DNA from: Marixanthomonas sp. SCSIO 43207
GTDB lineage: Bacteria; Bacteroidota; Bacteroidia; Flavobacteriales; Flavobacteriaceae
Assembly (NCBI RefSeq): GCF_019904255.1
Contig: NZ_CP063203.1
Location: 1,932,001-1,996,000 of the forward strand
Direction: 5' to 3'
Length of the DNA: 64,000 nt
Position numbers and translations under genes: made by a program. Below the pieces are notes generated by a model that worked only from the letters and a program-made list of their open reading frames with translations, was not told the origin of the DNA and searched no databases. This document shows, piece after piece, positions 62,589 to 64,000 of the stretch; position 1 is the first letter of the stretch, and each line of letters starts with the position of its first letter.

Positions 62589-63140
62589 CTAAAAGGTTTC
62601 ATTTGCTTTTAAATATTCGGTTATTTTCTTTACAGCAATGTGATAACTACTTTTTAATCCGCCTACAGATGTTTCTAGAATTTCAGATAGTTCGTCATAG
62701 GTATGATCGTCAAAATACTTCATATTAAATACCAATTGTTGTTTTGGAGGTAGGGATGCAATTGCCTTTTGTAATTGCAACTGGATGGTTTTTCCTTCAA
62801 AATAAACGTCTGTTTCTAGGTTTTTTAACGTACTTTCTTTAATCTCTTCAGATGAAATTTGTTTACGTTTTGCACGCTTGTTAATAAACGTTATTGATTC
62901 ATTGGTTGCAATGCGATACATCCAAGTATAAAGCTTGCTGTCTCCTTTAAATGAATCTATATTCCTATAAATTTTGATGAATGTATTTTGTAAAACATCA
63001 TCTGTGTCATCGTGATTTAATACTATTTTACGAATATGCCAATAGAGCTGTTTTTTATATTGAGATACAAGTTCTCTAAAAGCAGCTTCTTTTTGTTTGC
63101 TATTTTGTAAAGCCGTTACTAAATCTTGCTCTGTAACCAA
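62589..63140 (-). CDS. ECF-type RNA polymerase sigma factor
   Basis: 183 aa. Sigma region 2 (VLNHDDTDDVLQNTFIKIYR, TWMYRIATNESITFINKRAK) and region 4 (ALNFIDENT-type stretch seen as IASLPPKQQLVFNMKYFDD and SVGGLKSSYHIAVKKI). The start is TTG, as no ATG lies near and an upstream stop closes the frame. It heads a three-gene cluster with a likely membrane anti-sigma factor and a periplasmic sensor, and so probably responds to an envelope signal. The two candidate small RNAs lie directly upstream, on the other strand. Confidence 0.9.
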   Translation of the reverse strand: MVTEQDLVTALQNSKQKEAAFRELVSQYKKQLYWHIRKIVLNHDDTDDVLQNTFIKIYRNIDSFKGDSKLYTWMYRIATNESITFINKRAKRKQISSEEIKESTLKNLETDVYFEGKTIQLQLQKAIASLPPKQQLVFNMKYFDDHTYDELSEILETSVGGLKSSYHIAVKKITEYLKANETF

Positions 63141-63237
63141 AAATTAATGTTTTATTCTATTAGTATGACTATCTAAAAATAGAAAGGTTTAATGACAAAT
63201 GGTGTCTATTTATGAAAGAATTAAATTATTTCAAAAT

Positions 63238-63286
63238 ATCGACAAAATGCAATATTTTAAGATAAAAAGCATAAAATGTTTTTTTG
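63238..63286 (+). repeat. Conserved upstream block, copy A
   Basis: Contains ATCGA, AAATGCA, AAGATAAA, GCA and TTTTTTTG in the same order as copy B (63472-63515). The blocks differ by a 5-bp length change. They end at the -33-like TTTG of each unit and may bind an activator. Confidence 0.5.
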
Positions 63287-63309
63287 TAGGAAAATATTTA
63301 CTAGTTTTG
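63283..63309 (+). promoter_or_regulatory. Promoter of candidate small RNA A
   Basis: TTTG at 63283-63286 and TAGTTTTG at 63302-63309, exact TAnnTTTG match; spacer 15 bp, shorter than usual. Confidence 0.45.
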
Positions 63310-63315
63310 AAAAAC

Positions 63316-63404
63316 ACTACTTATGTGTTTGTTTATGTTATAAGCCTCAAGTATAACATAACAACTTAAAAACGGGTCTAAGCGGGGGCTGACCCGTTTT
63401 TTTA
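63316..63404 (+). ncRNA. Candidate small RNA A (about 89 nt)
   Basis: Predicted from the -7 box to the terminator. Hairpin 1 AAACAC/GTGTTT (63312-63330) encloses TACTTAT; hairpin 2 TATGTTATA/TATAACATA (63334-63360) has the loop AGCCTCAAG; the terminator hairpin AAAACGGGTC/GACCCGTTTT (63369-63400) carries a G-rich loop with GGGGG. No ORF. If transcription starts 7 nt after the box, hairpin 1 is only partly in the RNA. Alternative: the last hairpin is merely a minus-strand terminator. Confidence 0.45.
63368..63404. terminator. Intrinsic terminator of small RNA A
   Basis: 10-bp stem AAAACGGGTC / GACCCGTTTT, loop of 12 nt (possible inner AGC/GCT pairing closing a GGGG loop), then T run; weaker T run on the minus strand. 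Confidence 0.8.
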
Positions 63405-63471
63405 TATATTATTTTTTTATTCTGAAGCTAATTTTAGATGTAAGAAATTAACTATTAAATAAATTAAAAAC

Positions 63472-63515
63472 ATCGATGAAATGCATTTTTAAAAGATAAA
63501 GTGCAATTTTTTTTG
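63472..63515 (+). repeat. Conserved upstream block, copy B
   Basis: Second copy of the block at 63238-63286: ATCGA, AAATGCA, AAGATAAA, GCA and TTTTTTTG in the same order, ending at the -33-like TTTG of unit B. Confidence 0.5.
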
Positions 63516-63543
63516 CAGAATAGTAAAAAAGAATTTATATTTG
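63512..63543 (+). promoter_or_regulatory. Promoter of candidate small RNA B
   Basis: TTTG at 63512-63515 and TATATTTG at 63536-63543, 20-bp spacer, exact TAnnTTTG match. Confidence 0.5.
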
Positions 63544-63549
63544 AATCGT

Positions 63550-63634
63550 ATAACTTACTTATGAAACGTTATTACGTCCCCCAAATGTAATGACAGTATT
63601 AAAAAAAGAGCGGAGCCCCAACTGCTCTTTTTTT
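63550..63634 (+). ncRNA. Candidate small RNA B (about 85 nt)
   Basis: Contains TACTTATG (63556-63563), an 8-mer shared with unit A at nearly the same distance from the -7 box. Hairpin GTTATTAC/GTAATGAC (63568-63594, one G-U pair) presents GTCCCCCAAAT in its loop. The terminator hairpin AAAGAGC/GCTCTTT (63605-63630) presents GGAGCCCCAACT. No ORF. Its C-rich loops are complementary to the G-rich loop of unit A. Confidence 0.45.
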
Positions 63635-63637
63635 TTA
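63601..63637. terminator. Bidirectional terminator: small RNA B and ABC exporter gene
   Basis: Stem AAAGAGC / GCTCTTT with a 12-nt loop, A run left, T run right. The plus-strand T run overlaps the stop codon of the minus-strand ABC transporter gene, which it can also terminate. Confidence 0.8.
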
Positions 63638-64000
63638 TGCTAATGATTGCATTTCTACCAAGCTTTGATAGACTCCTTTTTTAGCCAGTAATTCACTGTG
63701 TTTCCCTTGTTCAACAATTTTTCCTTTAGAAAGAACAACTATCTTATCTGCATTTTGAATGGTGGATAGTCTATGAGCAATAACTACAGAAGTTCGGTTT
63801 TGCATCATTTTTTCCAGTGCGTCTTGTACCAACCTTTCACTTTCAGTATCCAAAGCAGATGTGGCTTCATCAAGGATCATAATAGGAGGGTTTTTTAAAA
63901 CCGCTCTGGCAATACTTAAACGTTGTTTTTGTCCACCACTTAACTTATTACCGCTATCTCCTATATTGGTTTCTATACCATTGGGAAGCTCTTTAACAAA
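63635..64000 (-). CDS. ABC exporter ATP-binding domain (3' end only, MsbA-like)
   Basis: The frame is open to the window edge, so ~121 C-terminal residues are present. They include the signature [16 protein letters not shown], Walker [13 protein letters not shown], and the H-loop [10 protein letters not shown], ending with MQSLA. This is the nucleotide-binding domain of an ABC exporter fused to membrane helices that lie outside the window (lipid/multidrug, MsbA-like). Substrate unknown. Confidence 0.88.

Follow-up and report, generated by a model that had tools for sequence, protein, structure and literature searches.

The locus lies near the end of a 64,000-nucleotide stretch of the Marixanthomonas sp. 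SCSIO 43207 genome (the window), between a divergent ECF sigma factor gene (62589..63140, - strand; Pfam Sigma70_r2 and r4), which belongs to the conserved locus, and a convergent MsbA-like ABC transporter gene, whose C-terminal part (63635..64000, - strand) runs past the window end. Two units of ~100 nt, measured from the -7 box to the terminator, lie in tandem on the + strand, U1 at ~63302-63404 and U2 at ~63536-63637, with their -7 boxes starting at 63302 and 63536, a spacing of 234 bp. Each carries in the same order a direct repeat, a TTTG region, a TAnnTTTG box, a TACTTATG box, a hairpin and an intrinsic terminator. An earlier note made from the letters had listed conserved upstream elements, a TAnnTTTG box, a hairpin and an intrinsic terminator in this order, as well as the adjoining ECF sigma gene, and all were found in place. 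In U1, the operator-like direct repeat (63240..63271; CGACAAAATGCA / AGATAAAAAGCA, period 20) and the -7 box TAGTTTTG (63302..63309) precede a predicted small RNA with an approximate start (63310..63404), which contains hairpin 1 (63329..63364) and the terminator (63368..63404) with its constant G-rich loop TAAGCGGGGGCTG. The counterparts in U2 are the repeat at 63474..63505 (CGATGAAATGCA / AGATAAAGTGCA, period 20), the -7 box TATATTTG (63536..63543), the predicted RNA, again with an approximate start (63544..63637), hairpin 1 (63568..63594) and the terminator (63600..63637). Passages of PMC9723704 give TAnnTTTG as the -7 consensus of Bacteroidetes sigma-A. A terminator scan of 63141-63660 returned 3 sites, compared with 0.2 in shuffled sequences; U1 and U2 each have one on the + strand.

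When 60 relatives were searched at the DNA level, the tandem region turned up in five more genomes from the genus and in a single genome of a different genus (G018). The covariance model of U found matches in 6/7 genomes of the genus, the one without a match being a 360-contig assembly (G005), and in 72/199 genomes of the family (E<=0.05), some of them through weak matches only. Synteny was read in 30 loci, and the flanks held the ECF sigma gene in 28 and the ABC transporter gene in 30. Weaker covariance-model places (G195:C3, G014, G145, G152:C54, G066, G218, G088, G119:C2) were left out. Two neighbouring units, ~205-265 bp apart on one contig, were present in 16 of the 72 genomes, and the remaining ones had a single unit or units that were not adjacent. 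Hence, the tandem pair described in the earlier note is real in the home genome but represents one state of the locus. The unit set used for counting comprised the best 93 of 129 matches (E up to 3.9e-4), and the 36 weaker ones (E from 0.0035 up) were omitted; six units with degenerate-looking loops (L363, L364, L370, L335:825, L214:1265, L218:1732) were kept.

The hairpin regions of U1 and U2 each folded better than 200/200 shuffles (z -3.4 and -5.9). Fifteen aligned units supported two helices comprising 17 pairs, with 92.8% of the cells paired, compared with 39-58% in slid controls; 13/17 pairs had changed on both sides, and 0/500 shuffles reached the score of the alignment. All nine pairs of hairpin 1 vary, and in eight both sides have changed, so the transcribed parts have diverged while the architecture is kept, as had been proposed. 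No conserved reading frame was found in U: the ATG of the box is missing in 32/93 units and the other 61 yield 1-27 aa, by which a conserved leader peptide from this ATG was rejected. No Rfam family was assigned to U1 or U2 in the window at gathering level. A search at E<=5 of five related loci (L001, L034, L056, L013, L007) gave 13 weak, chance-level matches, none above the gathering score. Flavo-1 and 6S RNA were not among these, and their covariance models did not match the window either. We therefore rejected membership of U in a known Rfam family, in agreement with the earlier reading. At gathering level, Rfam matches the window only at a tRNA gene (2625-2699). With a predicted promoter of its own, a terminator, a conserved structure and no conserved ORF, each unit has, at the sequence level, the features expected of an intrinsically terminated small RNA gene.

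The conserved upstream element in fact has three components: a direct repeat, a -33 region with TTTG, and a -7 box of the form TAnnTTTG. The repeat is a 12-bp direct repeat, CGATnAAATGCA, with a period of 20-21 bp. In the home genome, its two-half-site pattern occurs 14 times with <=3 mismatches, compared with 1 for the backward pattern, so random recurrence was rejected. The exact strong form was present in 13/100 family genomes (control 0). At >=17/22 matches the repeat was found upstream of 86/92 U units (reverse orientation 1, shuffled sequence 0), in most cases with its start 62-64 bp ahead of the -7 box. The element is thus conserved as claimed, but it is not special to U: it also lies upstream of a CAP-domain lipoprotein gene in six genomes, upstream of gldK in four loci (L008, L019, L052, L055; NCBIfam GldK above cut-off) and, in reverse, upstream of the RNA described below. 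As gldK, which encodes a T9SS ring lipoprotein for gliding, is preceded by the repeat, gliding and secretion genes may share the regulator. A transcription factor for the direct repeat was looked for and not found. The common operator, together with the covariation and the matches in the genus and family, supports the proposal of duplicated, co-regulated candidate small RNAs.

One repeat site in the home genome, beside sodA, led us to two tandem copies of another hairpin-terminated element (G000:C1:984177-984264 and 984814-984901; L034, L058), designated candidate sRNA B. Its 34-nt core, CATAAGTAGGTTAAGTTyATGGTAGATTTGGGGC, was found in 163/199 family genomes with 1-6 matches per genome (E<=0.001; the match in G021 is weak, 3.9e-4), and in 17/148 genomes of the order, all 17 from the home family. 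A scan of named genomes gave at least 118 stretches, and among the matches listed are Zobellia (six copies), Maribacter, Winogradskyella, Aquimarina and Flavobacterium, as well as bins labelled merely Bacteroidetes or Bacteroidota. Among 216 distinct B segments, CATAAGTAGGTTAAG was present in 205 and GATTTGGGGC in 161, a conservation that is overstated because the copies were gathered by exact core words. The operator was recovered at >=17/22 in 55 of 291 B copies in reverse orientation and in 4 in forward orientation, with 0 in shuffles, and it starts at -62/-63 from the -7 box in 35/47 strong cases. In U and in B the repeat is equally far from the -7 box and its orientation is flipped between the two, which suggests that B as a regulator and U1/U2 as its decoys probably respond to a single signal.

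What stays constant in U is its 5' box and its CCCCAA loops, and both complement B. In U2, the 5' box TAACTTACTTATG (63551..63563) matches CATAAGTAGGTTA of B over 13 bp with one G-U, CCCCAAAT in hairpin 1 (63579-63586) complements ATTTGGGG, and the terminator loop GCCCCAA (63615-63621) complements TTGGGGC. The 5' box of U1, CTACTTATG (63317..63325), complements CATAAGTAG over 9 bp and its hairpin loop GCCTCAAGT (63344-63352) complements ATTTGGGGC with G-U pairs; the G-rich terminator loop of U1 has the polarity of B itself. When 4262 slices of 90 nt from the window were compared blind with B, U2 ranked 1 as a B complement (13 bp in the 5' box, 7 bp in a loop), and U1 was weaker, with 31/4262 slices equal or better. 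Because long bulged RNAduplex structures were unspecific, they were replaced by ungapped duplexes. The best ungapped duplex between U and the B core averaged -14.2 kcal/mol over 93 units, against -7.7 kcal/mol for shuffled U and -7.6 kcal/mol for the reversed B core, which was beaten in 90/93 units. B-complementary sites were found in the 5' box of 78 of the 93 units, in the hairpin loop of 77 and in the terminator loop of 50, and 43 units had all three; the corresponding counts for reversed B were 10, 44, 31 and 1. Since this control is high for the C-loops, the signal is carried by the 5' box and the combination of sites, and less by the C-loops alone. In predicted folds, the sites were 72-81% unpaired, compared with 41% overall. 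B was present in 72/72 of the genomes with U among the 199 of the family (co-occurrence p 1e-8, a value that ignores phylogeny), and 91/163 genomes with B had no U match at this threshold.

Altogether, sequence, covariation, synteny, complementarity, operator positions and co-occurrence suggest that U1 and U2 are tandem predicted small RNAs which probably serve as decoys (sponges, noncoding target mimics) for candidate sRNA B. As would be expected of a sponge, U has a conserved complement, accessible in predicted folds, to a conserved segment of another candidate small RNA. Among the points against the decoy reading at the sequence level are the weak match of U1 and the order of the elements in U (box, then C-loop), which is opposite to that for one continuous antiparallel duplex with B, so that U would need separate or kissing contacts with B. 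Variation in the B core was too small for a comparison of compensatory changes with U. The match to B might also be a by-product, if U1 and U2 were ordinary trans-acting sRNAs whose C-rich loops act on G-rich mRNA sites, as CCCC loops are common in sRNAs aimed at ribosome-binding sites, such as CcsR of Rhodobacter and RsaE of staphylococci. We consider this unlikely, as the 5' box is not C-rich and yet matches B far more often than reversed B (78 vs 10 of 93 units), and none of the 199 genomes has U without B. A further point against it is that flavobacterial messages are described in passages of PMC9723704 as missing Shine-Dalgarno sequences.

The decoy reading gains from the candidate targets of B. 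B complements were found at the conserved mRNA starts of the CAP-domain lipoprotein and of a 41-42-aa protein. The CAP lipoprotein leader combines a forward repeat and a TATATTTG-type box with a hairpin that contains GCCCCAAAT and a start codon set in CTTATG. This pattern is seen in 6 genomes of 5 genera, the home genome among them, and a constant GCCCCAAATTTGATGCCCC hairpin lies ahead of the start codon in L255, L372, L311, L332, L371 and L309. The order of elements in these leaders fits continuous antiparallel pairing with B at the sequence level. U carries the same elements in a different order, and thus has the resemblance to targets looked for in a sponge. In five more loci (L306, L319, L320, L325, L329), the 41-42-aa ORF (MNxxPNLPKP...) adjoins a CoA-transferase gene, between one and four sites complementary to B fall in its leader and start, and the repeat is in reverse orientation with a score of 16-18; one sequence of this protein was tested and matched no Pfam family. 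Short target words were mostly background genome-wide. GCCCCAAA alone was hardly enriched in the home genome (67 vs 48) and was rejected as a target finder, and GCCCCAAA-N4-17-CTTATG reached 70 vs 49 in the family (row count).

On this basis, B would bind message leaders with GCCCCAAAU and/or the start-codon box ACUUAUG and lower the translation of its targets, of which the CAP lipoprotein mRNA and the 41-42-aa protein mRNA would be conserved examples. A transcription factor would bind the direct repeat and act on the U promoters, and the resulting U1 and U2 would pair with B in vivo through up to three sites (the single-stranded 5' box and the hairpin loops), which would relieve the targets of B. 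The complementarity itself is symmetric, and the C-rich loops of U are like those of other trans-acting sRNAs, so U1 and U2 could instead be the regulators and B the decoy that titrates them. We find this assignment of roles improbable. The conserved message leaders resemble U and not B, so that only B can pair with these leaders as well as with U, and the B core is near-constant and multi-copy whereas the stems of U drift. From this asymmetry we infer that B is the regulator and U the decoy.

The terminator loop of U1, GCGGGGGC (63382-63389), is constant and held by the 20/93 units that make up the U1 type. In G068, G091 and G102, the C-loop of U1 has been lost, the G-loop is kept and U2 is present, which weakens kissing between U1's own two loops and would agree with another arrangement, in which U1 opposes U2 and the constant GGGGGC loop makes kissing contacts with GCCCC loops in U2 or in messages, so that the pair works as an RNA-RNA switch. 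Such a switch seems quite doubtful, since U1 stands alone in G184, where the G-loop is still kept with no second unit at threshold, and G+C-rich terminator stems are usual anyway. That only terminator function is kept, with bidirectional terminators between the sigma and transporter genes, would account for two intrinsic terminators between convergent and divergent genes but is hardly credible and was rejected on the covariation of hairpin 1 (8/9 pairs), to which the conserved promoter boxes, operator and 5' box can be added.

Returning to U1 and U2 as decoys of B, we tentatively picture a family-wide circuit, in which the multi-copy, near-invariant B and a syntenic decoy locus beside the ECF sigma gene would answer to one factor through a flipped operator; in part of the family, U1 of the duplicated decoy may have gained its G-rich loop, which would let it serve as a decoy of B and also bind U2 or messages in the manner of B. 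We regard this wider picture as possible rather than probable. SroC, AgvB and the chbBC trap of ChiX are bacterial sRNA sponges or target mimics, which are noncoding or leader RNAs. Like them, U would be an RNA with the binding site of another sRNA, proposed to relieve that sRNA's targets. Unlike them, the U locus is dedicated, family-wide and furnished with its own predicted promoters, up to three sites and an operator common with B, and it has no sequence relation to them. An sRNA with a sponge is therefore a known kind of system, and what is new is these RNAs, their host group and the flipped common operator. A literature search that covered few subscription papers and no preprints yielded no account of either B or U. 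To our knowledge, post-transcriptional control has hardly been charted in Flavobacteriaceae. A pairing core that is almost identical across most of the genera sampled, likely decoys and a common operator make a concrete, testable RNA regulon, and provide two candidate RNA families for Rfam and a starting point for finding the transcription factor.

Other systems resemble single parts of this one. The CcsR/cuckoo-type sRNAs of Rhodobacter are tandem paralogous hairpins with C-rich loops, as are U1 and U2, but there is no common sequence and the loops of U match a conserved candidate sRNA. Flavo-1 is likewise a flavobacterial structured RNA, and differs from U in the covariance search reported above. 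The Qrr sRNAs of Vibrio are terminator-ended and exist in several near-identical copies with a constant pairing core. B has the same traits, but is arranged in tandem close to sodA in Flavobacteriaceae and differs in both sequence and operator. A possible relative of B is Rfp18 of Flavobacterium psychrophilum, likewise a flavobacterial sRNA with predicted messages for secreted proteins, but passages of PMC9723704 describe its pairing as running through a third stem-loop. The home genome also has a third, diverged B-like element (L267, near 278, - strand) with CATAAGTAGGTTGACC and AATTTGGGGC.
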